Below are positions 817 to 38,390 of a DNA stretch of 64,000 nt, piece by piece. How positions within the stretch are numbered: the stretch's first letter is position 1; the number at the start of each line of letters is the position of its first letter. The DNA comes from Haloflavibacter putidus. Lineage in GTDB: Bacteria > Bacteroidota > Bacteroidia > Flavobacteriales > Flavobacteriaceae. A model generated the notes under the pieces. The model was not told the origin of the DNA and did no database searches. It worked only from the letters and a program-made list of their open reading frames with translations. The translations under genes and the position numbers were made by a program. The stretch lies in contig NZ_VIAR01000005.1 of NCBI RefSeq assembly GCF_006546625.1, forward strand, positions 1 to 64,000, given 5' to 3'.

Positions 817-1548
817 TTAAAAAGACCACTTAAAACCAAATTGTAGTAAAATTATTACTAATGATAAAGCAATCAAAATTATAGTTATATAGAAAAATCT
901 TTTTTGTACTTTTATCAAATAATCGATTTTATCGATGAACTTAGATTCTACCTCAGATACTTTTTTTGCTATATCTTTTTCATTCTCATAGATTCCATCT
1001 AATTTCTCCGACTGTTCATTAAAGCCAATCCCAAAGCCTTCATTAATCTTAGAAAGTTCAGAAAAGATTTTGTTCTCTAACTTAGAAATCAGTTTTTCTT
1101 GCTCAGAAAAGCTATTAACAATTTCATGTTTTAATTCTGATATTTCAGATGATAGTATTCCGAAACTTTTAAAAAAATCGAAAGCTGCTAACTTTTCTTC
1201 TGTATTAGAAATATGCTCATTAAGAGACTTCAATCCTTTTAAGGTTTCATTGGCTTTAATCTCGAATTCATTAGAAACTTTGTTAGAATCTGTTTCTAAT
1301 CTATTTAAAATCGTCTCAAATTCAGACTTTAAGTTATAGGATAAGCGATCAATTTCTGTTGATATATTTGAGTTTTTAACATCGACCTTATCTGTCAACA
1401 TTTCTATTGAAGAAGTTGATTTCTGAACAGATTTTATTAGTTGCTCACTGGAATCTATGATACTTAAGACCTGTTCACGAGCGGACTGAAGGTTTTTTAA
1501 GTTATTTTCGATATCAATTAAAGAACTTTGGATTTCAGGATTATTCAT
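817..1548 (-). CDS. Coiled-coil protein with C-terminal membrane anchor
   Basis: The 243-residue protein is not recognised as any named family. Residues about 1-210 are almost entirely helical and charged, with long heptad-like stretches that predict a coiled coil. Residues about 217-238 (FFYITIILIALSLVIILLQF) form one hydrophobic segment, leaving a very short tail, so it looks tail-anchored in the inner membrane with the coil in the cytoplasm. It starts 2 bases after the methyltransferase-RecQ gene and is the last gene of the operon. By context it may tether the helicase or other BREX-associated proteins to the membrane, but that is inference. No catalytic motif is visible. Confidence 0.75.
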   Translation of the reverse strand: MNNPEIQSSLIDIENNLKNLQSAREQVLSIIDSSEQLIKSVQKSTSSIEMLTDKVDVKNSNISTEIDRLSYNLKSEFETILNRLETDSNKVSNEFEIKANETLKGLKSLNEHISNTEEKLAAFDFFKSFGILSSEISELKHEIVNSFSEQEKLISKLENKIFSELSKINEGFGIGFNEQSEKLDGIYENEKDIAKKVSEVESKFIDKIDYLIKVQKRFFYITIILIALSLVIILLQFGFKWSF

Positions 1549-1550
1549 TT

Positions 1551-4500
1551 TTATTGAATATATTTATTAGTTATTATTTCTAATTGTTGGGCGTGGATTA
1601 TTACCTTGGTTTCTTGCCTTAAAGTATTGTAATCGTCTTTTGACATATAAAGTTTTATATACTCATTAAACTCATCAAATAGGTACCAAAAGCTTTTTGA
1701 GCTTTCACTTCGTTTCATAAAGCCCTTCATTCCATTCACATAACTAGTAATAAACCGGCTTTCAATCGTTTTGTTTTTTTTAATTCCTAAATAAATGAGG
1801 CAAAATGATTCTAGTAAAGATAGTGAAGGGTTAGAGTCTGTTAAAGAGCGACTAATTAGTCTAACAGCACCATTTAAATGTTTCACATTATCTAGAGGTG
1901 TACCTACTCCAACTATGTCATCATCAATTACCCTAAGATATTTCTTTAAAATTTGTATAGAAGATTCTTTACCACCATTTGTATCTTTAACCAAGGAAAA
2001 CTCTTCACCATTATCTGCTACGTAGTCTTCTTTAGCATACTTCGAATTAAAATAATAGTATATGAAATCTTTTAATCTTTCATTAGATTTGATCCAATTA
2101 GTTTCTTTACTAAGCCCTTCCACACAAAAAGTTCTCATATCGTCAATCGCTCTTTTCCTTTTTACGGATATTTTATCGTAAATAAAGGAAGTTAAATACC
2201 AAAGACATTTATAAATTTCCTCTGTAATTGGGTTTAAGTCATCAACTTTTAATTTGTGAGTTTTAGCTTTTAAAACTTCTTGTTCTGCTCTATTCATTGT
2301 GTAATAACGCAACAAGAAGATCTTCAGGCCTTCTAAATACCCTCCAGGCTTCATTCTTTTTGCTATAATCCGAAATTGCTTGATAACGAAGTTTTGTGTA
2401 AAATCTTCAATTAAACCTATGCAGCACATTCTGTAAATAGCTTTAGCTAAATCTGCATATTCTTTTTCAGTATAAGGGACATATATAGTCACCGCATCAC
2501 CGGGAAGGGCGTTTACAAGCGGCGTTAAAAAACCTTCACTTTTTTCTTCATTTTTTTTATGAGCAACTACTACATTTTCTTTATTTAAAAGACGATGCAT
2601 ATACATTTTTTCAACGTAATCTCCTTTAAAAGATTGATCAAAGAAATATAATGTGGTGTCATAATCAGCATTTAAGTACCTGAAGTTTCTCTCGCTGATT
2701 TCTATATTTTCTTCTGAAAGCTTAGCTATTAGTTCATTTTTAGACTGCCATCTTCTTGCCTCATCACTAGCATATTTTAAAGTGCATTTATTAAAGACAG
2801 GACAATCCTCATTGCACTCCCTGAAAGCAAACATTTTATTATTTCTGGGGCAAAATAATTTTACGACATCCGATTGAGGAGAAGCAACGAATATATCATC
2901 TTCTGTATAATCTATATTATACTCCTCTAATATTTGTATCAAGTCATCTTTATAAAACCACTTATCTCTTAGTAAGCCTAACGGGAAACCCTTTTTTTCA
3001 AGATTAGTAAACTGGGCTATTTCATAATCAGTAACAAAAATAGTGGCCAATGCCATTTTACGGTCTCTGCCTGATCGGCCAGCCTCTTGCACAAATGATT
3101 CTAATGAACTAGAGTAGTTTAAGTTTATAGTAAAGCGTACATTAGGTTTATCTATACCCATTCCAAATGCTTTTGTTGCTACCATCAGAGGGCTTTTATT
3201 ATCTCTAAAAAGTTCTAAGCTTTCAGTAGCTAAAGCATCATCATCCTGGCCAGAAAACGAAGCTACCTGAGGAATTAATTCTTCTCTTAGTTTGCTTGTA
3301 TTCTTATTAACAGATATACCAGAATTATTTACATGTGGACAAAATACTATGCCTGCTTGTTTAAAAACTTCATTTGTTTCGAAATAATCAGTTGGCATTT
3401 CAACCTTTAAATCTAAATCACTTCCTTCCTCATTATTTTGTCTTTCTACAAAACTTTCTTTAATATATTCAATATTTTGCGGTTCTTGAAGCTCATTAAT
3501 AAAATCAGGAACTCTCTGAAGATACTCTTCTAGAAACTCAGATTTAGCATCATAAATTTTCCATTTAGAGCTATTGATCTTTACAGCTCTCGGTAAATTT
3601 TCAGGAAGCAGTTTTTTCTTATCGAAGGTATCATCTTCTTCAAAAGAAATTGGAATTCTTTCAATTTTATACTGTAATTCTAATCTGTTGGTGTTTTCAT
3701 ACCTCACAATTACTTCAGAATCTAAGGTAAATGCACCATTTCCAGACAATTCTCTTTCTACATCGGCTAAAACATCAAATGAAGCTGTAGCCGTTAGGCC
3801 AAATAGTGAAATTTCATTTTCTTTAGCTCTGACGTAGTTATATAAGTTTCTCCCTAAATGTAAATATGAAAATCTAAAGTCGTGCCCCCACTCCGATACA
3901 CAATGGACTTCATCAATAACAGCATACGAAAAATACACGTTATAGTCGTGCATATGCTTTAATCTTTCTCTAAAAGAAGCAATAGCTAAGCGCTCAGGAG
4001 AAAGGAATATAAATAATAATTCAGAAGACTCTAATTGGAGTTCAGCCGCTTCTTTTTCTTCTGAGCTCAATGATGAATTAATATAAGCAGCACAATCTAT
4101 ACCTGCATTTATCAAGCCATCATATTGATCTTTCATCAATGATTTAAGCGGGTCAATAATAAGAGTTACCCCTGGCTGCAATAAGGCTGCGATTTGATAA
4201 GTCAAGGATTTCCCTCCACCGGTTGGCAATAAGCCGATAACAGGTAAATTCTTTAAAGCTCTATCGAGTATAGGTAATTGTCCTGATCTAAAAGATTCTT
4301 TGCGAAATAATAATTGCAGAAAGTAAGTTAAATGCCTTTCGTTTTCTATCGCCGTTTGATAATTACCGTGATTATCTTTAAAAACTACATCCTTATACTT
4401 AATTAAGGAAGAAGTGTAGATATTTCTTGACTCTCTTAATTTTTGAATTGTTTTTATATTAAAATAACAATTATTTCTACATTTAAATTCACTAAAAGCT

Positions 4501-6038
4501 TCTATGCTTTCATTTACAGTTGTTAAAGTAGATTGCGTCACTACCAAATCAAAAGTAATTGAGGAAATTTTTGAGTTTATCCCTGTATAGACTTTTTGAT
4601 TTAAATGCAATTTTGAATCTTGAAATAATCTGTCACCAATTATCGTTAAATTGATTTTTGGTAATTTTAACTTATCATATTTTAGACTTAATGAGCTTAA
4701 ACTTTCAAAAAGTTGCTGAAAGTCTTTAATCGCTAATGTTGCAAATGGCACATCCTTTTCTTCAACCAATATATTCCACTCCTTCACCTCTAAGCTTAAA
4801 TGATCTGTAATCAAAGCTTCAACTAACACTTTTTGAAACCTAGCTATAGCTAAAGGACTTAATAAAACTTGTAGCTCTTCTAATAAAGTTTGATTTTTCC
4901 AATCATTTTTATCAAGGTATGATTTAAATATGCTGTTTAATTCTTCAAAATCGTATTCATTTATAGGGTTAAAGCTAATTTCTCCATACTTAATCTCTTT
5001 AATTGTGTTTCCAAATGCGTTTTGAAAGGCTTCTTCTATAAATAAACTAGAACGCGTTGGCAAACCTCTTGTTATAATATTATTTAGTACAGCAAGTATG
5101 GGCTCTACATCTTCATATACACTAGCACCCAAATCAAATGGTGCTGCGACCTCAAAATGTGAAAGTTGGTTGTTGTACTGCTCTTTACTTTTTCTTCTGC
5201 TGTTTCTAATGCAATCTAGCTCATAGGCTGCGGCAAATTGAACCGTTGGGTAATATTCAATAGGTATAAGGTGACCTTCTACATTTGCTTCAAGTTTATA
5301 AATTTTGGCTTTATACGTCCAATTATTACCAAACTGATAATTTTCTTCGGCATATAACTCTTGTAATAGATCTAAATTAAAGTACCTAAAAAAACTATCA
5401 ATCCTTTTGTTATTCGGATTCAATGGACCAACAGCTACTAGATAGTTATTTGAAACAATACTCCCATCTATAATATAGGTAAGATGCTTTAAATCTATTT
5501 GAGCAACATCTAAGATATTAGAGAATATATGAATGACTGGATAATTATTTTCCGTTTCAATATCATCTGCATTAATATTCTCAAAAAACTGATTATGGGT
5601 TTTAATAGGTATGCTTTGATCAAGATAGGTTTTAACATGTAGTTCTGCTCTACTTAAAGCCATTTTAGATGGCTCAACAAGTGTTACTGATGATATATTT
5701 TTGAGATTATTCGATTCTTTAAGGAAATCAAAAAGATTTATGGTACCCAATGCTTGCCCACAACCCCAATCGATAATATGAAACGGTGTTTCAAAAGCTT
5801 CGTTAGGGATATTTTTAAAGGCATCTAACAATTTTGCTTTGTGCATATTACCGAACGACCTTAGATACTGGCATAAATGCTGGTGCGTATCTAAAAGTGC
5901 TAAACCTCTATTCAAGCCAATATAGAATTCATCTGTCTCTGCAGAGTTAAATTCTGCTAATTCAGCCACAGCCAATTGTCTAATAGCGTCAAAGCTTGGG
6001 TTCTCTAAAGCTAATACGTTCTTCTGATAAGTTAGCAT
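1551..6038 (-). CDS. Methyltransferase-like domain fused to RecQ-type DNA helicase
   Basis: A giant 1495-residue protein. The N-terminal part (about 85-200) has a Rossmann-type SAM-binding motif, IIDWGCGQALG at about 88-98, followed by VEPS, the usual acidic strand. Residues 200-560 match nothing I recognise. A RecQ-like SF2 helicase core follows: motif 0 FRSGQ (583-587), Walker A PTGGGKS (605-611), DEVH (710-713), TATAS (749-753), FGMGIDKPNVR (958-968) and QEAGRSGRD (984-992). A Cys cluster (CPRNNK...CNEDCPVFNKC, about 1072-1094) resembles the RecQ zinc site. The C-terminal 400 residues are unassigned. It should unwind DNA using ATP. Whether the methyltransferase domain is catalytic is unclear. 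It starts 1 base after the AlkB-like gene, so the two are cotranscribed. Family RecQ enzymes are usually 500-700 residues, so this is a large fusion. Confidence 0.85.
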   Translation of the reverse strand: MLTYQKNVLALENPSFDAIRQLAVAELAEFNSAETDEFYIGLNRGLALLDTHQHLCQYLRSFGNMHKAKLLDAFKNIPNEAFETPFHIIDWGCGQALGTINLFDFLKESNNLKNISSVTLVEPSKMALSRAELHVKTYLDQSIPIKTHNQFFENINADDIETENNYPVIHIFSNILDVAQIDLKHLTYIIDGSIVSNNYLVAVGPLNPNNKRIDSFFRYFNLDLLQELYAEENYQFGNNWTYKAKIYKLEANVEGHLIPIEYYPTVQFAAAYELDCIRNSRRKSKEQYNNQLSHFEVAAPFDLGASVYEDVEPILAVLNNIITRGLPTRSSLFIEEAFQNAFGNTIKEIKYGEISFNPINEYDFEELNSIFKSYLDKNDWKNQTLLEELQVLLSPLAIARFQKVLVEALITDHLSLEVKEWNILVEEKDVPFATLAIKDFQQLFESLSSLSLKYDKLKLPKINLTIIGDRLFQDSKLHLNQKVYTGINSKISSITFDLVVTQSTLTTVNESIEAFSEFKCRNNCYFNIKTIQKLRESRNIYTSSLIKYKDVVFKDNHGNYQTAIENERHLTYFLQLLFRKESFRSGQLPILDRALKNLPVIGLLPTGGGKSLTYQIAALLQPGVTLIIDPLKSLMKDQYDGLINAGIDCAAYINSSLSSEEKEAAELQLESSELLFIFLSPERLAIASFRERLKHMHDYNVYFSYAVIDEVHCVSEWGHDFRFSYLHLGRNLYNYVRAKENEISLFGLTATASFDVLADVERELSGNGAFTLDSEVIVRYENTNRLELQYKIERIPISFEEDDTFDKKKLLPENLPRAVKINSSKWKIYDAKSEFLEEYLQRVPDFINELQEPQNIEYIKESFVERQNNEEGSDLDLKVEMPTDYFETNEVFKQAGIVFCPHVNNSGISVNKNTSKLREELIPQVASFSGQDDDALATESLELFRDNKSPLMVATKAFGMGIDKPNVRFTINLNYSSSLESFVQEAGRSGRDRKMALATIFVTDYEIAQFTNLEKKGFPLGLLRDKWFYKDDLIQILEEYNIDYTEDDIFVASPQSDVVKLFCPRNNKMFAFRECNEDCPVFNKCTLKYASDEARRWQSKNELIAKLSEENIEISERNFRYLNADYDTTLYFFDQSFKGDYVEKMYMHRLLNKENVVVAHKKNEEKSEGFLTPLVNALPGDAVTIYVPYTEKEYADLAKAIYRMCCIGLIEDFTQNFVIKQFRIIAKRMKPGGYLEGLKIFLLRYYTMNRAEQEVLKAKTHKLKVDDLNPITEEIYKCLWYLTSFIYDKISVKRKRAIDDMRTFCVEGLSKETNWIKSNERLKDFIYYYFNSKYAKEDYVADNGEEFSLVKDTNGGKESSIQILKKYLRVIDDDIVGVGTPLDNVKHLNGAVRLISRSLTDSNPSLSLLESFCLIYLGIKKNKTIESRFITSYVNGMKGFMKRSESSKSFWYLFDEFNEYIKLYMSKDDYNTLRQETKVIIHAQQLEIITNKYIQ

Positions 6039-6039
6039 A

Positions 6040-6654
6040 CTACTTAATTACTCTAAAAGTTAGGTTCACACGTTCTCCGATTTCTTTTTTGGTTTTAGGG
6101 ATCTGATGTTTCCAATAATGTTGTAGTTCACCTTGCATAATTAGTAAACTTCCGTGCTTTAAAAGAATGTCTATACGCTCATTAGTCTCAATATGTTTAA
6201 GTTGAAATTTTCGTTCTGCACCAAAATTTACAGAAGCAATTACTGGATTTTTTCCTAACTCTTTTTCAGCATCGGTATGCCATGAAATTGAATCGCTACC
6301 GTTTCTGTATCTGTTAAGTAAAACGCTATTAAATTTCACTTTTGCCTTTGGTTCGATATCTGATTTAATCTTTACTAAACCTGGACTCCAGGGATTAGGG
6401 TCTAAAGTTATACCTGAAAAACTATACGGTTTATCTTGGTCGCCATACCATGCAGTTAAGCGTGGAAAAGGAACTTTTTTTCCGTACATATTCATAGATT
6501 CCTGTTTCCAATTAATATCCGTAATTAATCGTTTTAAATAGCTATCTGCAGTCACTTTATCATAAAAATCAGGAATATAAATATATTCACCATGATTTAT
6601 TTTTATGGTCTCACCGCGTTTGGGAGACTCTGAAAACATATCTAATTGACTCAT
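6040..6654 (-). CDS. AlkB-like 2-oxoglutarate/Fe(II) dioxygenase
   Basis: The 204-residue protein is a complete AlkB-family enzyme. These enzymes remove methyl groups oxidatively from DNA or RNA bases using 2-oxoglutarate and iron. The iron triad is visible: H126 and D128 in SWHTD, and H183 in YWKHQIPK. The 2-oxoglutarate pair is R195 and R201 in RVNLTFR. The motif NRYRNGSDSISWHTDAE is typical of the ALKBH2/3-like branch. It lies between the small ORF (101-base gap) and the RecQ fusion (1-base gap). Possible roles are repair of alkylated DNA or removal of base methylation, which would be notable beside a BREX methyltransferase. The substrate cannot be told from sequence. Confidence 0.9.
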   Translation of the reverse strand: MSQLDMFSESPKRGETIKINHGEYIYIPDFYDKVTADSYLKRLITDINWKQESMNMYGKKVPFPRLTAWYGDQDKPYSFSGITLDPNPWSPGLVKIKSDIEPKAKVKFNSVLLNRYRNGSDSISWHTDAEKELGKNPVIASVNFGAERKFQLKHIETNERIDILLKHGSLLIMQGELQHYWKHQIPKTKKEIGERVNLTFRVIK

Positions 6655-6755
6655 TTCTTTTTATTTAATCACACTTAAACTTATTCAAGACTTCTTGGCT
6701 TATCTTTTATTTTTATACGGTGTATTATAATTATTCCTGTGATTGCTTTGCTACT

Positions 6756-6971
6756 TCATCTTATTAAATAGAACTTTAAAGCTTTTTTATTAATACTTCT
6801 TCTACTTTTTTTGCTGTCATCTGTTAATTTCACAAAATCAGACACAACTAATACACATTTGTTTTTTCCAAAGTCTTTCAGGTCTATTACACTTAATGCA
6901 ATGGAAGCTATACTTATTTGCTTGAGGAAGTTTTCTAACTCATAAACAAATTTGTGTTTATTGCTTAACAT
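6756..6971 (-). CDS. Small hypothetical protein, 71 residues
   Basis: This frame starts inside the last codons of brxL (7-base overlap) and runs for 71 residues with a basic C-terminus (KKSRRSINKKALKFYLIR). No family is recognised. The overlap with brxL is the spacing seen between other genes of this operon, which favours a real gene. The 101-base gap to the next gene is unusual for the operon and could hold a secondary promoter for the AlkB-RecQ-coiled-coil genes. Confidence 0.5.
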   Translation of the reverse strand: MLSNKHKFVYELENFLKQISIASIALSVIDLKDFGKNKCVLVVSDFVKLTDDSKKSRRSINKKALKFYLIR

Positions 6972-8989
6972 TTTAAATATGTAATTTCACATGCTTTACA
7001 TAACCGCTGTTCTTGAACATATTCATTAATATCATACCAGCCACCTGTCTTTTGCCAGATATCTAAACCTCTACCTAAAATTACTTTCCAACCATTATCT
7101 AAAATGATGGAGCGGTCGTGAATGCAATTGTCAAACTCGTAACTAAAAATGATACCTACCCGCTCTAGAGAATATACAATTTGCTTGAATGCTTCTTTAG
7201 CATCTTCTATATAATCCTCATTATTTGCAGTCACCAAATGAAGTTTTACTTCAACATCTGGGTCTTTCTTTTCAGAAAGTAATTTAGCAAACTCCATAAA
7301 ATTCCTTAATTGATATGGAAGACGAACATATGGATCTACGAGTTTAACATCCGTGGCACCTACTAAATAAGCCCCGAATAATAGATTATAAGAAATACCC
7401 GATTGATTATCCCGAATTATTTTCTGGCCCTCAGAAAGCTCTATAGTTTTTTGTTGAGATATCACATCTACATTGTTGTTAGCAGCTTCTAAAGTATCAA
7501 CTTGATCGATAGTGATTAGATTATCTCCACCGTTTTCAATAACTTCTAAAGTCTCTACATTTATAACTTCTCCTGAGCTTTTAATAGTGTAACTAAAATC
7601 TACAGGTTGCTCTAAGAAAGTTTCATCCATTTTCTCAAGCTGTTGCTTGACACGCTTCCTATTTTCAATAGCAAAGTCTAACAACTCTTTGGCTTCGTTT
7701 TCATTAAAATCTCCTTGCGGATATATCACTTTGATTAAACCTGCGAAGGTTTTCTCGATTGCCGTTTTATCACGAGTGGTAATAGAATTAGATAACTCAA
7801 AAAATTGCGAGTACTCATTGGTTCTGTCTTCTTTGCGTAAATCACGTAGGATTTCAGCAAGATAATCAACGATAAAACCATAGTCAGAACTAAACATCTC
7901 ATTACGTAATTTGAGAACTTCCCAACCCGGTAAATAGGCGTGTATTCTATCTAAAAAAGCTGCATCATAATAATCTTTAGGCAATGCGTCAAAAAGGTCA
8001 CTATGCTTGAGCATATAGGGAACAGAATGGTCTGTATTCCCTACAAATACCATTGATGCTGAAGCTCCATATTGTTGTGTTCCTCTTGAGAAGAATTTGT
8101 TAGCCATATAGTTCTTCAGAATGTCCACTAAACCTCTGTCAGACTTCTTTGTCTTTCCTGCAAATTCATCATAAGCTACCACATCCCAATACCCAACTAA
8201 TCCTATTTCTCCAGTACTATTGTTGACAAAGAGTTTTGCTTTGGATACCTCACCACCAGAAATAAGCATTCCGTGTGGTGATAATTCTGAGAAGATATGA
8301 GATTTCCCAGTTCCTTTTGGCCCCAATTCAATCAGGTTGTAATTATTTTCTACAAATGGCACTAATCGTGTTAATTGTAAGAGCTTAGAACGTTTGGTAA
8401 ACTCATCGGGATTAAGACCTATAGATTGCATCAATACATTCATCCACTCCTCTGTAGTAAACTGTTGTCTTGCACTTTTGTATTCTTCTATATCTACATT
8501 AGATATTTGAATAGGTTTGATACTTTCTATTATCCAGGGAACGATTCCTTTTTCATCTGAAGAATAGTATGCTAATGTTAGAATACACCAAACACCGCTT
8601 GAGAGTAGTTTTTTATGTTCTTTGATGACATCACTGGAGATCGGAATACGACTTAGTCCAAGATTTGCAAAAGAGGCTTCATACTGGTCTTTTATATCAT
8701 TTAATCTAACAGAAACTTTATCAATGATTCTATGTGAGCCTTTTTCTCGTACTGTTGATTTGATTAGATTAGCCTCATCTCTATGTACAAAGTGTTTTGA
8801 TATAATATTCTTAACGGTTTCTACACCTTGATTGATGGTCTCTTCATCATCTGTAGCGCAATATTGTCCTAATAAATATTCTAGTACGTAGGTAGGTACA
8901 ATTGCATTACCCTTAACTAATTTGGTTAAGTCTTTTCTAACTACTTTTCCTTCAAAGTGTTCATTAAGTTTTATATCTAGTGCTTTCAT
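6965..8989 (-). CDS. brxL: BrxL, BREX ATPase with MIT_C-like C-terminus
   Basis: The 674-residue protein has the BrxL N-terminal region (KLNEHFEGKVVRKDLTK onward) and an AAA+ core with Walker A GPKGTGKS (223-230) and Walker B VVAYDEFAG (270-278). In type 1 BREX the usual partner is a C-terminal Lon-like protease domain. Here I see no Lon Ser-Lys motif. Instead residues about 535-674 carry KLVDPYVRLPYQLRNF and HDRSIILDNGWKVILGRGLD, the signature of the MIT_C (phospholipase D-like fold) domain. BrxL is a DNA-binding ring protein needed for phage defence but not for methylation in studied systems. It starts 3 bases after pglZ. Confidence 0.9.
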   Translation of the reverse strand: MKALDIKLNEHFEGKVVRKDLTKLVKGNAIVPTYVLEYLLGQYCATDDEETINQGVETVKNIISKHFVHRDEANLIKSTVREKGSHRIIDKVSVRLNDIKDQYEASFANLGLSRIPISSDVIKEHKKLLSSGVWCILTLAYYSSDEKGIVPWIIESIKPIQISNVDIEEYKSARQQFTTEEWMNVLMQSIGLNPDEFTKRSKLLQLTRLVPFVENNYNLIELGPKGTGKSHIFSELSPHGMLISGGEVSKAKLFVNNSTGEIGLVGYWDVVAYDEFAGKTKKSDRGLVDILKNYMANKFFSRGTQQYGASASMVFVGNTDHSVPYMLKHSDLFDALPKDYYDAAFLDRIHAYLPGWEVLKLRNEMFSSDYGFIVDYLAEILRDLRKEDRTNEYSQFFELSNSITTRDKTAIEKTFAGLIKVIYPQGDFNENEAKELLDFAIENRKRVKQQLEKMDETFLEQPVDFSYTIKSSGEVINVETLEVIENGGDNLITIDQVDTLEAANNNVDVISQQKTIELSEGQKIIRDNQSGISYNLLFGAYLVGATDVKLVDPYVRLPYQLRNFMEFAKLLSEKKDPDVEVKLHLVTANNEDYIEDAKEAFKQIVYSLERVGIIFSYEFDNCIHDRSIILDNGWKVILGRGLDIWQKTGGWYDINEYVQEQRLCKACEITYLKC

Positions 8990-8992
8990 ATC

Positions 8993-15970: not shown

Positions 15971-15975
15971 ATATA

Positions 15976-18900: not shown

Positions 18901-19479
18901 CTCAGCACAGTCTTCTGTAGACATTCCCTCTCTTATGTCTTGTACTATAGAGAACTCAGAGGTTAAATCGTCTGGTAAGAGTAACTCTGCATAATCGTTA
19001 ATCTTTTCAAATAGAAAAGGAAAAATGGTGTTGAGGTGGTTACAGGCACCTATGAGTAGTTCCTTATACGCTTCGTTTTGTGCATCGCTACTACGTATGG
19101 TACCATCTAGTAATTCAAAAATATGTTTGGTATCTACAGATAGCTCGTTTGGGATGTTACCTTGTTTGGCTTCGTCTAATAGTTCTGGTAAGGTATAACC
19201 CTCTTTGGGTGTGATTACGCCTATTTTTATAGGTTGGTAATCGTTAGCATCCATAAAACGCAGTGCCATCAACCTATTAAACCACGTGTACGCCACCTTA
19301 TCTACAACCTGTTCTTTTGAAGTCTTTTGTATTTCGGCTTTTAGCTTTTTTACCTGTGCTTCTTTTTCTCGTAATACCGCAGAGTCTGTAGTTAACACAT
19401 AGTCTAGCTTTGCAGCCACTTGTGAAACGATTTTTATACGCGCTTCTTGAGCGAAACTTTTGAGTTGGTTGGTGTTCAT
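15976..19479 (-). CDS. pglX: PglX, BREX adenine-specific DNA methyltransferase
   Basis: The 1167-residue protein is the BREX-1 methyltransferase, which puts N6-methyl groups on adenine of a non-palindromic site to mark host DNA. Visible motifs are LFTPRWIVEYMV (about 231-241), the SAM-binding motif LLDQACGSGH (287-296), the acidic YGFEID (about 329-334), and the catalytic DNPPY (464-468). The large C-terminal half would hold target recognition and contacts with BREX partners. Length is normal for the family. It starts 8 bases after the GmrSD-like gene and is followed after 5 bases by the NERD gene. Confidence 0.95.
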   Translation of the reverse strand: MNTNQLKSFAQEARIKIVSQVAAKLDYVLTTDSAVLREKEAQVKKLKAEIQKTSKEQVVDKVAYTWFNRLMALRFMDANDYQPIKIGVITPKEGYTLPELLDEAKQGNIPNELSVDTKHIFELLDGTIRSSDAQNEAYKELLIGACNHLNTIFPFLFEKINDYAELLLPDDLTSEFSIVQDIREGMSTEDCAEVEIIGWIYQFYISERKDEVFAAKGKVKKEDIPAATQLFTPRWIVEYMVQNTVGKLWLQNRPNSSLKDHMPYYIESPATESDDFLKINSVEEITLLDQACGSGHILVYGFELLTKIYEEEGYSPSEIPQLIVEKNLYGFEIDERAAQLAGLALMMKAREYHKRVFRKQLTPHILCYQDLKLTTDEIREVFKSIDTKLSNELLYDLGNIQQATNLGSLIVPHSSTLFLEETLQSLKVKEQTNSDLFIKEKLQQLVIALAQLVSLSRKYHCVVDNPPYMGGGNMNNPLADFVKTNYPASKADLMACFMEAGLGVLQLKGYLGMINQHSWMFLSSYERLRKKLIREINIDTLLHLGARTFPEIGGEVVQNVAFTLVKKNTDAKGNYIRLVDDKNTQLKSLKALEAIKNSRCGWYYKTNQNNFLKIPNHPIGYWSPQTVIKSFEKFKKINEYFVSDGPCKSGKDAEYLRQYWEIQKIDYGKDKKWRLCSKGGETRKHYGNYEFVLKWTKECQIHYRKDKIARITSETNRDKRGITWSIISGSNNSFRLLTNEALYNSVSPAIFSLNEESYSLNGMMMFLNSKVAKYYLEIINPTLALNVGNVLGIPINPRIFDFKNESNLEDYILEWNSRETSLDFTQNELVKHKSDTLEESYDGYQQYWTNKFFHLHKNEEELNKQFIDIYSLQEELTPEVPLEDITILKEETDIVNGELVFNAKEVFIQFISYAVGCMFGRYSLVKEGLILANQGETLEDYLEKIATSNQQLAASFMPDDDNIIPVLDDEWFEDDIVGRFYEFLKVTFGESQFEKNLAFIEDCIGKDIRKFFVKDFYNDHIKRYKKRPIYWMFSSPKGAFNVLIYMHRYTPDTLNQILNGYLVEYREKLNTRMEHLDHLIESGTSSEQTKAAKEKDKLKAVLLELQEYEREVLYPLATERITIDLDDGVLVNYNKFGNAIKLVKGLNDKKAKDKVKKFDWIDTTTIK

Positions 19480-19487
19480 AAATTTTA

Positions 19488-21344
19488 CTAATCTTCTGCT
19501 AATTCTGTTTCCAATTCTTCCTCCTCTTCCACTTCCACTTCTTTTGGCACTTGAAAGTGTTTATCTATGCCCCATCTATTAATAATCCACTCATTGAGTG
19601 TTTCTTTTCTTTTTTTGCAACTCTCTGGTGTCCATTCTTCAAATTCAGCAATTTTCCGTTCTTGCCTTATATCTGAATTTGCATAGCAATGGCCTAAACC
19701 AGGTTTTCCTTTCTTTCTATCATATTCAAAATTGGAGTAATGGGAATTATCTTTCGTCAAGACAATATTTGAAATATCGTGTAAGTATAACGCAAGCTCT
19801 TCTTGGCTCCAATGTTGTTTCCATTGTGAGTTTTCCGTTGGATTTTGCGGTAGAATATGCTCAAAAGTAGCATCGGTTAAATCTGACCACGCCAACTTCG
19901 GTTTAGCTCCTTTTCCTTCTTTTTGCAATAAATACAATTCATATTCATACAGAGTATATCTCAGTAGACGTCTCCACTGGTACCAATTGTGAAAGTCTTG
20001 CTGGAGTTCTTTTCTAAAACTATTTTCGTTAGAGTATCTATTTATTAATCCTTTAATCCAGCTCGTGACTGTTTCTACACTTTGTTTATTTTTAAACACG
20101 TCATCTGCCCATCTATAAAATTTAGAAAGTCCGGTATTGCTGCGTTTTCCTTCCCATAAGAACACGCGATAGGAAAATAATTCGATTGCTTTTAACAGAC
20201 TAATATAGCTTTCAATAGATGTTGAATTTGAAAGTACAGACTTTCGAGTCGCGACAATTAAGGGTAGGAAATTAGCAACGTTACCCAAGTTTTTAATTTT
20301 AGTTAACCACACATACTCACCTTCAATAATAGAACTTTTACTAGGTTTCATTATTTCTGCATAATGCAATGAAATTTCGGCAAGACCTTGGGTAAATTCT
20401 TTTATAAATTGTTTTGTATCTTCTTCAGATCGTATTGAAAAATCTCGTATTGGGATAACATCGTCTGATTTAAAGCCACTATAACTTTTCCAATGTCTAG
20501 GCGTGTGTGATTGGTATAATGTCCACGCAATGCGTAAACATCTGTTTTCGCTACCATTACACTTCGCTATATTGGTATAGACCTCTTTCCAGGATTTGTT
20601 GATGCGTTTGGTGAAATCTTTCTTCTCATATTGTTCACGAATATTTCTGTAAACCCAATACATTAAATAATTTTTTAATAATTCTAAGGCGGATAAATCT
20701 TTACCCCTAGAATTCATCAATTCGAAAGTCATCCCTATTTCACTTTCTTCTTCTATAGGGTAAAATGAAAAGTTTAATTTTCTAATAATGGCATCAAACA
20801 CATCTCTTAAGTACTCTATTCTTTGTTCTTTTGACTTGTCTTCAAGTTTGTTAGTCAAATGTGTTTTAAAATAATTGTAAGCCTGGAACAATCTTTTTTG
20901 ATGAATGGTATAAGCCGTTACATTTGTGCTTCCCTTAGTAATTAAGTCATAAAAGAACTCTTCGGTATCATTATTGAGTATTAATCTACTTTTTGAACCT
21001 GAATATAAAAGCGGTAGTTTTGATTCAAAAGCATTTTCTCCTAATTTAATTAATTCATTTAAAATTACAGATAAGTATAAACTACTTGTGGTTAATCTTT
21101 GTTGACCATCTACTACATCTACCTTTTCTAGTTTATCTATACCATAGTAATCAGTAGGCTTTTCTTTGGGTTGATAAATAACGATAGTACCGGTATAATG
21201 ATTAGTAATTTTATCGTCTATTAAAGCATCAATATCTTGAGCGAAATCTTTCCATTGAGATTCCTCCCAGGCATAGCCTCTTTGGTAATCTGGAATTCTA
21301 AATATTTTTCCTTCTAAAATGTTAGATAAAGTTTTTTTCTCCAT
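19488..21344 (-). CDS. GmrSD-like (DUF262/DUF1524) type IV nuclease
   Basis: The 618-residue protein joins an N-terminal DUF262 domain (IPDYQRGYAWEESQW at 17-31; DGQQR at 79-83, the nucleotide-handling motif; FELMNSRGKDLSALELLKNY near 207-226) to a C-terminal DUF1524 HNH domain with FEHILPQ (494-500) and N526, then N533/Y541 in the expected positions. Such fused GmrSD enzymes are nucleotide-dependent nucleases that cut phage DNA carrying modified cytosine. BrxU, found with some BREX systems, is of this family. Here the gene sits inside the core, 9 bases after brxC and 8 before pglX. The last 16 residues are an acidic tail rich in Glu. Function by family is likely; the modification recognised is unknown. 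Confidence 0.88.
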   Translation of the reverse strand: MEKKTLSNILEGKIFRIPDYQRGYAWEESQWKDFAQDIDALIDDKITNHYTGTIVIYQPKEKPTDYYGIDKLEKVDVVDGQQRLTTSSLYLSVILNELIKLGENAFESKLPLLYSGSKSRLILNNDTEEFFYDLITKGSTNVTAYTIHQKRLFQAYNYFKTHLTNKLEDKSKEQRIEYLRDVFDAIIRKLNFSFYPIEEESEIGMTFELMNSRGKDLSALELLKNYLMYWVYRNIREQYEKKDFTKRINKSWKEVYTNIAKCNGSENRCLRIAWTLYQSHTPRHWKSYSGFKSDDVIPIRDFSIRSEEDTKQFIKEFTQGLAEISLHYAEIMKPSKSSIIEGEYVWLTKIKNLGNVANFLPLIVATRKSVLSNSTSIESYISLLKAIELFSYRVFLWEGKRSNTGLSKFYRWADDVFKNKQSVETVTSWIKGLINRYSNENSFRKELQQDFHNWYQWRRLLRYTLYEYELYLLQKEGKGAKPKLAWSDLTDATFEHILPQNPTENSQWKQHWSQEELALYLHDISNIVLTKDNSHYSNFEYDRKKGKPGLGHCYANSDIRQERKIAEFEEWTPESCKKRKETLNEWIINRWGIDKHFQVPKEVEVEEEEELETELAED

Positions 21345-21353
21345 AGTTAGTTT

Positions 21354-24300
21354 TTAAAGTGTAATTTTTAAGTTTTGGTTAATGCGTTTTAGGTAGGCTT
21401 CTTTTAAGGCTTCGGTATATGCCAATACATCTTCTTCCGAGGTTAACTCACGGTTTGGATAGTCTATGTGAATAGACGATTTTTTGATATATTTTGCTTT
21501 AGGTTCTTCTGCTTTACCAGACTCATCTTTAGGTGCCAGCAATTTAGCTATATGATTGAGCTGGTCGTTGTAGAAGTTGTCTTCAACCTTTCTAATTTCA
21601 TTACGAATATTACCAATGAAGCGTTCTGCTTTTACTTTCGCTTTAAGCGAAACAATAATCTTCTTAATTTCATCTTGTTGTGCAGTATCTAACTGTTGGA
21701 AAGAATCTGTTTTTTCTAAATCTGAGAAAACTGCATCTAGCTTGTGGTTAAAACGTTTTTTCTCACTATCAATGCCATCAATTACTTTTTTGGTTAAGCT
21801 ATCTTTGGCAGCTTTTGCTATTTGAATAGCATTACCTTTATAAGGAGTTTTACTATTGATTAGTGCCGTCAAGGTTTCAAATTCATCACCTTCTATATAA
21901 TCTATGTTTGCTGTGTTACTATTGACGACCTTTTTAATATCGAGATAAATATTTGCCTGTTCGCCATTGATAAAGCTTTTAATAGGGTCTAGCAGATCTT
22001 CTTTGCCATCTAATAAATCATCCTCAAAATCGCTGATACTGGTCAAATAGTATTTGTAATCTTTGCCTGATAATCGTTGTAATCTTTCACTAAAACCTTC
22101 TAAAACAGAAAGGAATGGGAAGTCATTTTTTCTGTAATGTAATTGTTTTACCTCAACAGTGAGATCTTTAATTTTTTCTTTAAAGGCTACCGCAACATCT
22201 TTTGCTTCCTTAAGACCTGTAGTCTCATCAAAAGCATCTGCATAGAGTGTTTTTAAGTGTTTTAGTTGCTTTGGATCCACTTCGGCTTGTGGCTCTAATA
22301 AAGTAGAACCGTGGTTGGAACTGTTAATTAACGAAGTCAAAACATCTTCATCTTCTAACAAGCTGGCATTTTGCTTTAGCTCAACCTTACCACGTTTATA
22401 TAATTTTGCGGTAACTGTCCAAATAGCATTAGGATACCAACCGTATGGTTTTTTAGTAAAGTGGGTTTTTATATCATTTAAAGATGTTCTGTCTGATTGC
22501 TTTTTTCTTCTTTTGATAAAATTTAGAATTTCAGATTCGGCTTCAGAAATGGTTTTATCATCAGTACCAAATAAATCATCTTGCTTACTGCGTACCGTAT
22601 TACGAATGGCATCTTCTGTAATTAAGCTACTACCTAGCATCTTTAAGTTAGGATACACCTGCTTGATTAAATCTTGAAAAGCATTTATAACTTTAGTCTT
22701 ACCCTCTTTACTATGACCAGACTCGTGCTTGCTACCATTCATAAATACGGTTGCTTCTGCCAAGATAGCATTAGCCATTATGATGAGGTTACGTCTCCGT
22801 TCTGCATTCTGTTGTGCTTTTTCCTGAAGAATACGTTTTACCTCTACACGATTGGTAGTCGATTGATTTTGCTTTACATATTTGTTAGTACGTAAATACA
22901 TTTTTAAATCTTTCATAAACAAGGCGTTAGAAGCTAACTTCAGCTTCATACCCGTTGTCCCCATAGTTTGATTTTGATGAAAAATGTCATTATCATAATC
23001 CACAAAATTCTCTGTGATGATTTCAATAAACAGCTCCTTTTCTCTACCCAGTGAACTACCATCTATTTTACTGGTGAAATCGTAGTCTTGTTTATTATCT
23101 AGAAACTTAATCTTGTTATCACGGATGATTTCATCAAAGAACAATTCTCTAAGAAGTTGTGTAATTGCTTGGTCATCAATATCTGTGTTTTTGATTTCTT
23201 CTTCTACATCCTTTTCATCATCGGTTAAGAATTCGTACACATCCCCATTACGCTGCACATAACTTTGGTTTTCAAGAATATTTAAAGCCTCGTCAACCTT
23301 TTGGTTATGCTCGTTTAGGTCTACCTGAATATCATCAATAAGTAGTACTGAAACATTTCTTTTGGTTGTTTTAAAGTTGCCAAAGTACTTTACGAGAAAC
23401 AGTGCTTTGAGTACTTTAATTGCAAAAGGATTATTTAGGTTTCGTTCTGCCATAATTACAGAACTTTGGATCTCTCCACGCAGTTCATTTCTAATCCCTT
23501 CGTACATTAAATCAAAGCTCACCAGCGCTTGTGCATCTTTATCTTCAATGATTTGAGTCACTTGCTGAAAAACACCTAGCATAGAGCGTTCACCTACGGA
23601 AGCGTGCTTTCCTTGAAATGCATTGTGCGTAGACAAGGCTCTACGACATTGTTGGAATAAGTCAAATTGATAAGGTATAAAGGGAAACTTATTCCCAAAA
23701 TCTGAGGCATCATTAAAGCCTTTAAATTGCACCCCGGCCTCAGAAAAAGAAAGTAAGGTATCTAATTGTGCACTCGTCTCTTTATAAGAAGCAATTAATT
23801 GTTTTTGAGCGTCTTCGTTTTTACTTAACAATCTTTTTTCGATTACTTCATCAACGTTTGCTGAGGTTAGTGGTACTTTAATTGCAAATCTTGCCTGTAT
23901 ACGAGAAAAGTCATTTTGCTGGCTTTTGTTCATATCACCTACCACCTTTTCCATATCTTCTTGAGAAGTTACCAGAATCCAAGAATTCCCTTTAGTACGA
24001 GTTGCTAAGGTTTCTGCAACTGTTTGAAGATTTAACATCAACTTTGTATTGTCGCTAATGTATTGGCCCACCTCATCTACAAAAAAGTTTAGGCGAAAAC
24101 CTTTAGGTTTGGTAGAGATGTATTCTTGTACACGTTCGCAGAAGTCTTCGATTGATGAGGTGCTGTCTTTACGCATTGTATCGATAATATTTTGATACTT
24201 AGAGGCATCATCATCAAACAATTCACCTAAAACTTCACCTAGTTTTCGTTTTACTTTTGGAGCAAAATATTTTCTTCTATCATCTGTCCAATTCTTACCA

Positions 24301-24851
24301 CTTTTTTCTAGGTACAACTCTTGAAAAGATTCCCATTTGCTTTCGCTATTTAGCCACATCTCAAACTCAGCGACAGGTTTTTTTGAACCATAAAAACCTA
24401 AATGGTCATAGAAGACCTTATAAAACACAGATAAGATAGCATTTGGGTCTTCCTTACTTGTAATTTGTGCTTGTTGATCAATATTGAACAAAACAGACTC
24501 TGAAGGGATTTTGGTAGCTGCAAGAACATCCCCTTTGAGCATTTCATCATTAGTGATTTTACTTGCAAACACTTTTCCGCTTTTTTCCCCATTAAACTCT
24601 TTGTTTTCAAAAACATAAGACAATATTTTAAGCAAGTGGGATTTACCACTACCAAAGAAGCCTGATATCCAAACCCCATTCACACCACTGTAATTGTTAT
24701 AAGCTTGAAATAGGTCTCTTATTTTTTTACCTATTTCGTTTGTAATTACATACTCTTCGACTTCATTAGAAATTTGGTCTCGGTCATCTGCTTTGATAAC
24801 GGTTTCAATATTCCTGTTAATGTCTTTCTCGAAAAAATCTTTTATTATCAT
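21354..24851 (-). CDS. brxC: BrxC, BREX P-loop ATPase
   Basis: The 1165-residue protein is the large BREX ATPase. Walker A is GFFGSGKS at about 64-71, and downstream FRLNFFVDEVGQYIS supplies the Walker B Asp-Glu. DEV with SWILVTSQEDM is the sensor-like strand that follows. It is ORC/Cdc6- or STAND-like in fold by family knowledge, and needed for both methylation and defence in studied systems. The C-terminal half is helical and coiled-coil rich. Length is typical. The start codon overlaps the brxB stop by 4 bases. Confidence 0.95.
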   Translation of the reverse strand: MIIKDFFEKDINRNIETVIKADDRDQISNEVEEYVITNEIGKKIRDLFQAYNNYSGVNGVWISGFFGSGKSHLLKILSYVFENKEFNGEKSGKVFASKITNDEMLKGDVLAATKIPSESVLFNIDQQAQITSKEDPNAILSVFYKVFYDHLGFYGSKKPVAEFEMWLNSESKWESFQELYLEKSGKNWTDDRRKYFAPKVKRKLGEVLGELFDDDASKYQNIIDTMRKDSTSSIEDFCERVQEYISTKPKGFRLNFFVDEVGQYISDNTKLMLNLQTVAETLATRTKGNSWILVTSQEDMEKVVGDMNKSQQNDFSRIQARFAIKVPLTSANVDEVIEKRLLSKNEDAQKQLIASYKETSAQLDTLLSFSEAGVQFKGFNDASDFGNKFPFIPYQFDLFQQCRRALSTHNAFQGKHASVGERSMLGVFQQVTQIIEDKDAQALVSFDLMYEGIRNELRGEIQSSVIMAERNLNNPFAIKVLKALFLVKYFGNFKTTKRNVSVLLIDDIQVDLNEHNQKVDEALNILENQSYVQRNGDVYEFLTDDEKDVEEEIKNTDIDDQAITQLLRELFFDEIIRDNKIKFLDNKQDYDFTSKIDGSSLGREKELFIEIITENFVDYDNDIFHQNQTMGTTGMKLKLASNALFMKDLKMYLRTNKYVKQNQSTTNRVEVKRILQEKAQQNAERRRNLIIMANAILAEATVFMNGSKHESGHSKEGKTKVINAFQDLIKQVYPNLKMLGSSLITEDAIRNTVRSKQDDLFGTDDKTISEAESEILNFIKRRKKQSDRTSLNDIKTHFTKKPYGWYPNAIWTVTAKLYKRGKVELKQNASLLEDEDVLTSLINSSNHGSTLLEPQAEVDPKQLKHLKTLYADAFDETTGLKEAKDVAVAFKEKIKDLTVEVKQLHYRKNDFPFLSVLEGFSERLQRLSGKDYKYYLTSISDFEDDLLDGKEDLLDPIKSFINGEQANIYLDIKKVVNSNTANIDYIEGDEFETLTALINSKTPYKGNAIQIAKAAKDSLTKKVIDGIDSEKKRFNHKLDAVFSDLEKTDSFQQLDTAQQDEIKKIIVSLKAKVKAERFIGNIRNEIRKVEDNFYNDQLNHIAKLLAPKDESGKAEEPKAKYIKKSSIHIDYPNRELTSEEDVLAYTEALKEAYLKRINQNLKITL

Positions 24852-25435
24852 TGCTTTGCTTCTATGTTGTCAATGTTAAATGCTCTATAGTAATTGTCAT
24901 CTTTCAATAAACCGAATAAGTTTAGAGAATGGCCATTATATTCACCAGGAAAAAATGCTACAGTTGGTGAATCTTTTGCTATGCTTTGCAAATTATTTAG
25001 GATGGTGTGTGAACGTATAAAAGGGAACACCAAGCCAATCCCTGTTAGAAAATACACCTTAGCTGATGATGCTTTAATAAGGGTATCAATTTTAGGCATT
25101 AATACCTGATGAATTTCAAGTACAGATTGGATTGCATCTAAAAATTCTTCCTTATCCATTTCCTTCTCAATACTGAAGAATTCTTCTAATCCTATTTCTT
25201 CCTCCAGAATACTACACGCAATATCGTATAAGTTTAATTCTAATACGGGCACACCCGAAGTTTCTAATTTTTTGATGAGACGCTTCGTTGCATCTTCCAC
25301 TTTAAGCTGCTGTTTAGCCTCATAGGCTGCGATGAAAAAAGGAATTTCACCACCTAGCGCTTCTTTGCTAAGAAATCTATCTGAGGAAACGACATCGTAT
25401 AAGTGTTTAAATTTATTGGTTAGGTTTTGCATCAA
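24848..25435 (-). CDS. brxB: BrxB (DUF1788)
   Basis: The 195-residue protein matches the DUF1788/BrxB family by length, order and sequence (ALGGEIPFFIAAYEAKQQL, then KIDTLIKASSAKVYFLTGIGLVFPFIR). It has no obvious catalytic motif. In characterised BREX systems BrxB is needed for methylation and defence and contributes to the PglX-PglZ-containing complex. It overlaps brxA and brxC by 4 bases each. Confidence 0.92.
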   Translation of the reverse strand: MMQNLTNKFKHLYDVVSSDRFLSKEALGGEIPFFIAAYEAKQQLKVEDATKRLIKKLETSGVPVLELNLYDIACSILEEEIGLEEFFSIEKEMDKEEFLDAIQSVLEIHQVLMPKIDTLIKASSAKVYFLTGIGLVFPFIRSHTILNNLQSIAKDSPTVAFFPGEYNGHSLNLFGLLKDDNYYRAFNIDNIEAKQ

Positions 25436-26031
25436 TTAAAATTTTCAATATCTATATCACTAACAAAAAATAGTTTAAGCCATTTTTTATCATCATTTGC
25501 AATAACTCTCATTAGTTTGCTATCTAACAATTGAGGTTGAATTTCTTTATTTTTAGTATTATCAATAATTCCAGCTTCTACTAAGGTTCTAAACAGAACT
25601 TGACGAATTTTCTCGTTAGTAGCCTCAGTAAAATTTTGCATTTTGTAATATGTTTCAAGCTTTCTTCTAAAAAACGATCTATATTCTCCTTCGGTTAGAG
25701 TATAGTCAAAAACCAATACTTTTTCTCTACAAACTTCAATGACAAAATCTCTAATAAAACCGTACACCTTGCACATAGCCAAGAAAGCTATCTGTTTTTG
25801 TTCATAAAAATCACCATTCAATAAAATGTCAATTTGCTGTTCATTTAAACTATCTAAACGTTTATTTATTTCAATTAAAAATCTTTTTCCAGAGCTGGTT
25901 TTACCTTGTCCTATTTCTTGGATAATATCGAAATTCCTTTTATTTTTATTTACCATAGCCACCTTTACCAACTCTTTTACTCTTAATGAAAGCGCTGTAA
26001 ACCCAAAATCATATTTTTCTTCTAACAGCAT
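25432..26031 (-). CDS. brxA: BrxA (DUF1819)
   Basis: The 199-residue protein matches DUF1819/BrxA (LEEKYDFGFTALSLRVKELVKVA near the start). BrxA is a small DNA-binding protein; in studied type 1 systems it is required for defence in some and dispensable in others. Its start ATG shares one base with the stop codon of the upstream regulator gene, and its end overlaps brxB by 4 bases. Translational coupling is therefore likely. Confidence 0.92.
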   Translation of the reverse strand: MLLEEKYDFGFTALSLRVKELVKVAMVNKNKRNFDIIQEIGQGKTSSGKRFLIEINKRLDSLNEQQIDILLNGDFYEQKQIAFLAMCKVYGFIRDFVIEVCREKVLVFDYTLTEGEYRSFFRRKLETYYKMQNFTEATNEKIRQVLFRTLVEAGIIDNTKNKEIQPQLLDSKLMRVIANDDKKWLKLFFVSDIDIENFN

Positions 26032-26207
26032 CAGTTCACCAGGTCTTTTATAGGCACTTCTAATAGTTGGCTTAATTTGACTAAATTTTTTTTACTTGGG
26101 CTAGATTTTTCTTTTACCCAGTTGGACATCGTAACTGTACTGACCCCCATACGTTGAGCTAGATAAGACTGTTTAAGCCCCTTGGATTTGATTACATCTT
26201 TCAGCAT
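26031..26207 (-). CDS. Small Xre-type regulator at the head of the BREX operon
   Basis: ATG at 26207 to TGA at 26031 encodes a 58-residue helix-turn-helix protein (MLKDVIKSKGLKQSYLAQRM, then VSTVTMSNWVKEKSSPS and LVKLSQLLEV). The order KQSYLAQRMGVSTVTMSNW is a classic Xre/Cro HTH. Its stop overlaps the brxA start in TGATG, so it is the first gene of the operon. It probably controls BREX expression, perhaps through the TTGAGTA sites upstream. A separate BrxR-type WYL regulator is not seen. Confidence 0.85.
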   Translation of the reverse strand: MLKDVIKSKGLKQSYLAQRMGVSTVTMSNWVKEKSSPSKKNLVKLSQLLEVPIKDLVN

Positions 26208-31994: not shown

Positions 31995-31997
31995 AAT

Positions 31998-33436: not shown

Positions 33437-33550
33437 TCCCAAAAATATATAACTTTTTCGATATATGTTACTATTTATAGGGTTTTTTATTAAATACCAC
33501 TAGGTTTTATGTTTATTTAAGAAGCAGGTGATATCATTTTTGAGGTCTTG
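33437..33550. repeat. Direct repeat copy B, with 29123-29240
   Basis: Near-identical to 29123-29240. It continues into the 3' end of the intact 33500-34174 gene, as copy A continues into the pseudogene. Confidence 0.8.
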
Positions 33551-35548: not shown

Positions 35549-35552
35549 GAGA

Positions 35553-35819
35553 CTAGATTTTATTATCCATTAAAAGTTTATCAATTTGCTCAACATCATA
35601 ATAATACGAGCCACCAATCTTACTACAAGGAATAACATTATTCACCCTATAATTCAGCAAGGTGGGTTTTGAGATATTGAGATACTCCGCTGCCTCATCC
35701 GTTCTTAGCCAGCGTTTTTTAATAGCGTTTTTCTGATTGAGTTCAATCTCATTTAACTTGTTTAGGAGATCATTTTTTAAATCTGTTAAGTGTTTTGTGG
35801 TTACAATTTCTGCGTTCAT
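35553..35819 (-). CDS. Excisionase-type helix-turn-helix protein
   Basis: The 88-residue protein has a MerR/HTH_17-type DNA-binding domain (RTDEAAEYLNISKPTLLNYR, then CSKIGGSYYYDVEQIDKLL), common in excisionases and small regulators of Bacteroidota elements. It lies beside the integrase and RteC genes and may control excision or the replication-like genes that follow. Confidence 0.82.
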   Translation of the reverse strand: MNAEIVTTKHLTDLKNDLLNKLNEIELNQKNAIKKRWLRTDEAAEYLNISKPTLLNYRVNNVIPCSKIGGSYYYDVEQIDKLLMDNKI

Positions 35820-38351: not shown

Positions 38352-38390
38352 ATTTGGTACTATTTATAAGTATTTATAAATGAGTAAAGT

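Follow-up and report, generated by a model that had tools for sequence, protein, structure and literature searches.

Nucleases embedded in BREX (bacteriophage exclusion) operons have been presented as a general rule, with GmrSD and a BrxL bearing a C-terminal HKD nuclease among those listed in the accessible part of that work (Rakesh and Krishnan 2026, PMC12839542). A GmrSD-type gene lodged between brxC and pglX has been described, as brxU, for the BREX of pEFER (PMC8565348). We analyzed positions 1 to 64,000 of contig NZ_VIAR01000005.1 from Haloflavibacter putidus (hereafter the window: the first 64 kb of a contig in a 2.92-Mb genome, position 1 being the contig end). Fourteen minus-strand open reading frames (ORFs) run from 26,207 down to 817, with a helix-turn-helix (HTH) gene first, the genes of a BREX following, and a coiled-coil gene last. 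This operon is very probably a complete type 1 BREX plus separable defence cargo, not a BREX subtype, because the extra genes were not seen to recur together in the genomes searched. Three of them make up an apparently undescribed cassette, found repeatedly in Bacteroidota and other groups, that encodes an AlkB-like oxygenase, a methyltransferase-RecQ fusion and a coiled-coil protein.

The type 1 BREX of pEFER has its core genes and the position of GmrSD in common with the window operon. Its extras are brxR, brxS, brxT and brxU, with no NERD, TPR-S1, AlkB, methyltransferase-RecQ or coiled-coil gene in the accessible part of the report, and its regulator is a WYL-type BrxR, whereas the window has a 58-amino acid (aa) XRE-type HTH protein (PMC8565348). 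The auxiliary effectors named in the accessible main text of PMC12839542 also differ from the window's extras, as RecQ, AlkB, 2OG, TPR and UvrD are unmentioned there.

By the NCBIfam models for PglZ type A and BREX-1 PglX, the operon core is type 1 BREX; BrxA, BrxB, BrxC, PglX, PglZ and BrxL are all present in that order. The initial annotation of this DNA had reported the same intact core, which the Pfam, PADLOC and NCBIfam matches bear out. It had also placed GmrSD-like, NERD and TPR-S1 genes inside the core, in agreement with Pfam matches to GmrSD_N/GmrSD_C, NERD and S1, and AlkB-like, methyltransferase-RecQ and coiled-coil anchor genes after it, in agreement with 2OG-Fe(II) and DEAD/Helicase_C matches, a methyltransferase fold model and a C-terminal helix. 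The composition is near certain and is as follows (nt, nucleotides):

26031..26207, minus strand: 58-aa XRE-type HTH protein, likely regulator (NCBIfam RstR-type HTH, 3e-8, below cut-off; 1-nt overlap with BrxA)
25432..26031, minus strand: BrxA (PF08849, 1.8e-38; PADLOC BrxA)
24848..25435, minus strand: BrxB (PF08747, 5.8e-41; PADLOC BrxB)
21354..24851, minus strand: BrxC ATPase (NF033441, 1033 bits; PADLOC BrxC)
19488..21344, minus strand: GmrSD-type (BrxU-like) predicted modification-dependent nuclease, fused chain (PF03235, 3.3e-32; PF07510, 2.8e-18; DGQQR and HILP motifs)
15976..19479, minus strand: PglX (BrxX), predicted N6-adenine methyltransferase (NF033452, BREX-1 PglX, 1232 bits; NPPY at 465)
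13013..15970, minus strand: NERD nuclease-helicase-like protein (PF08378, 1.6e-4, 22.6 bits against a cut-off of 22.1; PADLOC PDC-M16A, 1.7e-57)
11488..13020, minus strand: TPR and S1 protein (PF00575, 1.7e-7, above cut-off; PADLOC TPR PDLC01170, 9.2e-27; Pfam TPR sub-threshold)
8993..11491, minus strand: PglZ, type A (TIGR02687, 716 bits)
6965..8989, minus strand: BrxL with a C-terminal phospholipase-D-like domain (PF13337, PF20442, PF16565; TIGR02688 above cut-off)
6756..6971, minus strand: 71-aa ORF that may not be a gene (no NCBIfam match; 7-nt overlap with BrxL)
6040..6654, minus strand: AlkB-like 2OG-Fe(II) oxygenase of ALKBH3/ALKBH2 type, cassette gene 1 (PF13532, 8.6e-33; PDB ALKBH3, 1.6e-40)
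1551..6038, minus strand: 1495-aa methyltransferase-RecQ fusion, cassette gene 2 (methyltransferase at about 1-250, RecQ-like helicase at about 570-1010, own C-terminal region; Pfam DEAD, Helicase_C)
817..1548, minus strand: 243-aa coiled-coil protein with a C-terminal hydrophobic (predicted membrane) helix, cassette gene 3 (named from sequence; a like ORF directly follows the helicase in relatives)

Twelve of the 13 junctions measure between −8 and +9 nt, so that most neighbours do overlap or lie within 10 bases, as first reported. The outlier is the 101 nt between the 71-aa ORF and AlkB (310 nt from AlkB to BrxL by coordinates, if the small ORF is discounted as a gene). Hits to the promoter pattern TTG-N-TAnnTTTG lie within GmrSD and some 500 nt ahead of the HTH gene; AlkB is preceded by none, and the result is uninformative.

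Among the 395 genomes of the order, eight have a PglZ relative, full-length in four, the window's own included. The same gene order was sought at these loci, and none of the other three full-length ones carries the full set: G433 has a BREX free of all the extras, G195 one with GmrSD alone, and in G381, where only about 2 kb past BrxL is readable, no extra lies inside. A new BREX subtype was rejected on these grounds. Of the initial annotation's proposal, the extended and mostly tightly packed operon stands, while the extras as a single set do not; its remark that the full set is not a known BREX subtype holds for the literature searched, in which no named subtype with this set was found.

Relatives of the cassette were surveyed with a profile of six methyltransferase domains against genome contigs; the best 80 of 335 relatives plus four viral ones gave 84 loci, a sample that leans toward close relatives. 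At 65 of the 84 loci the four ORFs upstream include a same-strand gene for AlkB and/or a DUF1848 protein (11 AlkB only, 9 both, 45 DUF1848 only), and a partner lies downstream at three; 16 have none, seven of these with less than 1.8 kb of upstream sequence. Among RecQ-fused relatives of at least 1400 aa the partner is upstream in 36 of 38. Spacing in 11 tabled loci is tight, from −4 to +18 nt between partner and methyltransferase-RecQ and from −8 to +2 nt between the latter and the coiled-coil gene. Behind the RecQ-fused members comes an ORF whose hydrophobic helix (mean hydropathy at least 1.9) lies no more than 10 residues from the C-terminus, the exceptions being loci cut at the end, L124 (no downstream ORF passing the filter) and L109 (helix of 1.74). 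A search of 99 genomes with the full-length methyltransferase-RecQ protein was swamped by ordinary RecQ and was uninformative.

In four relatives, L095 (Flavobacterium tegetincola), L101 (Robertkochia), L102 (Gillisia) and L104 (Lewinella), the cassette occupies the space between PglX and PglZ and does not follow BrxL as it does in the window. In L097 (Algoriphagus) it precedes brxA, two ORFs intervening, and in L100 (Ignavibacteriales) its neighbour is a PglZ remnant of 100 aa. BREX linkage thus extends to at least 6 of the 15 AlkB-bearing RecQ-fused relatives and 6 of the 84 methyltransferase loci, a lower bound given short contigs; the remaining nine of the 15 show no match to the window's BREX genes within six ORFs on each side. 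Gaps flanking the cassette do not exceed 31 nt on either side in L095, L101 and L102. Adjacency this frequent is not due to chance, because PglZ relatives are so rare in the order. The cassette is separable, with a lineage that prefers BREX, since nine AlkB-bearing relatives lack a BREX match and the six BREX-linked loci fall with the window in one ten-row clade (support 100). No match to the window's GmrSD, NERD or TPR-S1 was found within six ORFs on each side of these six cassettes. Its BREX company and its restriction-subunit-like neighbours (at five loci a large gene resembles a type I restriction subunit by eye) make it probable that the cassette is a defence unit. The PglX-PglZ gap of BREX emerges as a repeated landing place for whole, probably defensive cassettes.

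The window AlkB matches ALKBH3 at 1.6e-40 among PDB sequences, versus about 1e-3 for E. coli AlkB, and has both the HxD...H iron site (HTD) and the C-terminal RxNxTFR motif (RVNLTFR) of ALKBH2/3-type enzymes. This motif pattern is unmatched in four of the 50 rows of an AlkB tree (L103, L052, L057 and L061; L103 carries RINLTYR). A branch in that tree (100/99) separates 23 of 26 other AlkBs from all 21 cassette AlkBs, with the window's on the cassette side; three other AlkBs (L048, L050, L054) also group there, and the cassette group itself is weakly supported. The genome encodes a second AlkB, 48% identical to that of the cassette.

The helicase part of the 1495-aa protein has intact RecQ-like motifs, and motifs along the chain include DWGCG at 90, LVEPS at 120, SNILD at 173, TGGGKS at 606, DEVH at 709 and QEAGRSGRD at 984. 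Its N-terminal domain has no Pfam match. A structure model (pLDDT 92.8, Foldseek matches to S-adenosylmethionine (SAM) methyltransferases at E ~1e-7) predicts with confidence a class I SAM-methyltransferase fold, and profile comparison with PDB sequences places YecO and CmoA best (8.6e-4 to 4.4e-3). The motif NPP[YFW], sought in that form only, is absent from the 1495-aa protein.

Other members of the family carry a different N-terminal domain. Four helicases without the methyltransferase (on Haliscomenobacter and Salinibacter plasmids, in G178 and in G001) bear instead a Vsr/PD-(D/E)XK-like stretch with conserved (V)D and (E/D)-x-DG..H, which its alignment leads us to name a putative Vsr-like nuclease; the same kind of coiled-coil gene follows all four. 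Scanned with a profile of this stretch, 23 of 85 proteins score E ≤2.1e-18, and the one ranked after them 0.011. We also built a helicase tree of 39 rows (proteins of at least 1400 aa, L131 left out as another helicase, midpoint root, some forks open). Methyltransferase, nuclease and helicase occur together in 19 of the 39 rows, and AlkB accompanies none of these 19. The nuclease is absent from the other 20, window included, 16 of which have AlkB and four DUF1848 only. The AlkB-bearing rows are not monophyletic, as Runella and Flavobacterium Ww45 stand apart from the main group, and we infer loss, not gain, of the nuclease. In L033 (4977-10929), from a genome of the window's own genus, there is a nuclease-type RecQ with a coiled-coil gene; a 74-aa ORF nearby is 94.6% identical to the end of window 33500-34174. 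The wider family is therefore a RecQ-like helicase with a tail-anchored coiled-coil partner, its N-terminal effector being a Vsr-like nuclease, nuclease plus methyltransferase, or, as in the window, methyltransferase alone.

Outside this family, the methyltransferase domain is fused to superfamily 1 (SF1) helicases, or to leucine-rich repeats (LRR_5) or Sel1 repeats. In L125, L128, L140 and L158 it stands on Sel1 or BspA-type leucine-rich repeats, a sensor-like chassis. At L147, L161, L172 and L085, AlkB, an SF1-like helicase and a 2CompART/2CompARG (ADP-ribosyl) gene are clustered, joined in all but L085 by DUF1848 and the methyltransferase gene. In L030 (8819-11816) a methyltransferase-like gene, AlkB and a reverse transcriptase stand in a row, without RecQ.

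Pfam identifies DUF1848 in one protein (L103); for the others the assignment is by phmmer. Three cysteines, C304, C308 and C311 (CX3CX2C), are invariant in 12 aligned sequences (L158, which is not DUF1848, was left out), and no relative was found among PDB sequences. The choice of partner follows a marker of respiration. Detection of the oxidase subunit COX1 (PF00115) covered 50 of the 84 loci in 49 genomes, comprising all 20 AlkB-bearing ones and 29 of 45 DUF1848-only ones; L134, from the genome of L103, was not counted, and some of the 16 DUF1848-only loci outside the test are viral contigs. COX1 scores above cut-off in 11 of 11 AlkB-only genomes, 8 of 9 with both partners and 2 of 29 with DUF1848 only, that is, in 19 of 20 AlkB-bearing versus 2 of 29 DUF1848-only genomes (Fisher p 2e-10), and was detected in 8 of 14 control genomes; the window's genome has it. 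This suggests that AlkB and DUF1848 fill one role, one of them requiring oxygen, with lineage as a confounder. The swap is also a clue to the function of DUF1848, whose reaction may be an oxygen-free counterpart of that of an ALKBH2/3-type enzyme.

Several catalogued systems overlap with parts of the cassette. The window helicase core matches DpdF (3.8e-70) and PsyrT (2.5e-52) in PADLOC, but has a tail-anchored coiled-coil partner, and the family N-terminus is a methyltransferase or a Vsr-like nuclease. Membership in Dpd or PsyrTA was rejected, as the helicase core alone matches and no Dpd protein besides DpdF was found among the operon genes scanned. The DUF1848 partner in L103 matches PADLOC RTasDUF1848 (9.2e-41), listed under DRT and by name a reverse-transcriptase-associated DUF1848. 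Here, in contrast, DUF1848 is tied to the methyltransferase domain. Reverse transcriptases lie beside the pair in L030 and near the cassette in L100, and with that of L030 as query one was found at 1 of 84 loci. The coiled-coil protein weakly matches Zorya ZorA (3.8e-4), probably by coiled-coil composition only, as the window protein has 243 aa and one C-terminal helix. No description of the cassette by title or abstract, and no mention of DUF1848, was found in the literature searched, which covered few subscription papers or preprints (bioRxiv included).

We tentatively favor a writer-eraser mechanism, with a probability somewhat below even. The coiled coil would tether the helicase to the membrane, the helicase would bind and unwind nucleic acid that is invading or being replicated, and the methyltransferase domain, standing where other members have a nuclease, would methylate exposed bases and so block copying. 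The host's own nucleic acid would be kept clean by a partner acting on that mark, AlkB in hosts that respire and the radical-SAM-like DUF1848 protein mostly in genomes lacking the oxidase. This reading draws on a methyltransferase with an eraser-type enzyme as its neighbour, a nuclease missing from every AlkB-bearing member compared, and the oxygen pattern. The broader proposal, in which a methylating rather than cutting defence effector with a paired AlkB or DUF1848 eraser has had its writer domain moved among RecQ, SF1-helicase, LRR and Sel1 chassis and rides BREX as cargo, is more doubtful. If true, base methylation would serve as a bacterial weapon with a dedicated eraser as antidote, which we did not find described in the literature searched. 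A number of observations weigh against these proposals. Foldseek matches of the methyltransferase are mixed (KsgA, UbiG, Bud23, CmoA, METTL6, and protein and small-molecule enzymes), so its substrate may be RNA, protein or nucleotide. Fusions to LRR or Sel1 fit a writer on unwound DNA poorly, and L030 and L031 pair methyltransferase and AlkB without RecQ, their AlkBs falling, weakly, opposite the cassette side of the tree. The nine loci with both partners are not predicted by simple interchange. The sole Pfam match of the Vsr-like stretch is sub-threshold (MTES_1575, E 0.049), and the radical-SAM-like character of DUF1848 is weakly supported, its fold matches being weak (Cfr, prob 0.96, TM 0.30; Elp3; none at E ≤0.001). 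The oxygen pattern has exceptions (L161, both partners and no COX1; L105 and L107, DUF1848 only with COX1) and is confounded by lineage, as DUF1848-only genomes are mostly Bacteroidales or Bacillota by their titles, and by incomplete metagenome-assembled genomes; 2OG oxygenases are in any case expected to be rare in anaerobes.

The same genes could instead form a self-marking restriction-modification system, which we consider somewhat unlikely. AlkB or DUF1848 would oxidize or complete the methyl group into a protective host mark, and the helicase with its nuclease or, for BREX-linked copies, the BREX machinery would attack unmarked DNA. Oxygen-dependent and oxygen-independent enzymes for one step are typical of biosynthetic pathways, the 19 tree rows with methyltransferase, nuclease and helicase on one chain are like single-chain restriction enzymes, and BREX, in which the cassette is embedded, is itself methylation-based. 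However, the established role of ALKBH2/3-type enzymes is erasure, no target-recognition domain appears among the Pfam matches of the scanned proteins, LRR and Sel1 fusions are no DNA readers, and the 1495-aa protein lacks the NPP[YFW] motif. An RNA-directed response is unlikely: methyltransferase and partner would modify or repair tRNA, rRNA or phage transcripts. The helicase or repeats would act as sensor, and methylation would stop translation until the partner restored it. RNA methyltransferases (KsgA, Bud23, CmoA, METTL6) are among the best fold matches, YecO and CmoA lead the PDB-sequence comparison, ALKBH3 acts on RNA too, and the reverse transcriptase of L030 adjoins its methyltransferase and AlkB pair. 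Yet the fold matches do not tell RNA from other substrates, DNA is the main substrate of RecQ-type helicases, and the nuclease of other members is Vsr-like. The initial annotation's view, by which all extras would belong to a single BREX subtype and work within the BREX complex, now appears very unlikely. Tight spacing in the window and in L095, L101 and L102 speaks for it, as does BREX linkage in 6 of the 15 AlkB-bearing RecQ-fused relatives and 7 of the 10 members of one cassette clade; tabled cassettes without BREX among their neighbours (e.g., L096, L098, L099, L112, L114, L117), insertion places that differ among loci, and the other full-length BREX loci of the order speak against it.

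The cargo inside the BREX core is GmrSD together with a NERD/TPR-S1 pair. The GmrSD gene is of the BrxU type, a fused GmrS-GmrD chain located between brxC and pglX, and at the equivalent site the G195 BREX carries a gene 76% identical to it, without the window's other extras. Weak GmrSD matches (21%) lie near the methyltransferase gene in L176 and L177. The NERD protein has a sub-threshold match to UvrD_C_2 (PF13538, 3.4e-4), and a GK[ST] P-loop sought in its sequence is absent; in the 8 of 62 plasmid records viewed for this query, matches are partial, at 22-23% only. Weak matches to it (24-31%) adjoin the methyltransferase gene in L108, L138 and L139. For TPR-S1, no full-length match was found in the 394 other genomes of the order (up to three candidates scored per genome) and none on plasmids; the matches listed for the order fall nearly all on the S1 end. 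That end recurs in larger proteins in L136 and in L083 (G376), the latter directly after BrxL of another BREX locus.

A tyrosine integrase and a tRNA-Pro gene are adjacent in the window at 36827-38050 and 38389-38464, and the BREX region probably belongs to an island that integrated at tRNA-Pro, with its left end beyond the contig. At 31326-33233, an HNH protein matching PtuB (8e-65) adjoins an AAA ATPase; the two probably form a Septu-type system on the same island. A second PglZ-domain protein, on the same contig outside the window (110625-111197, in a 523-aa frame), was rejected as a second BREX; judged by its size it is probably PorX. Homologues of window genes 34204-35819 lie upstream of the G195 BREX (L080, 356-2238), and a similar island may thus carry BREX in another genus.

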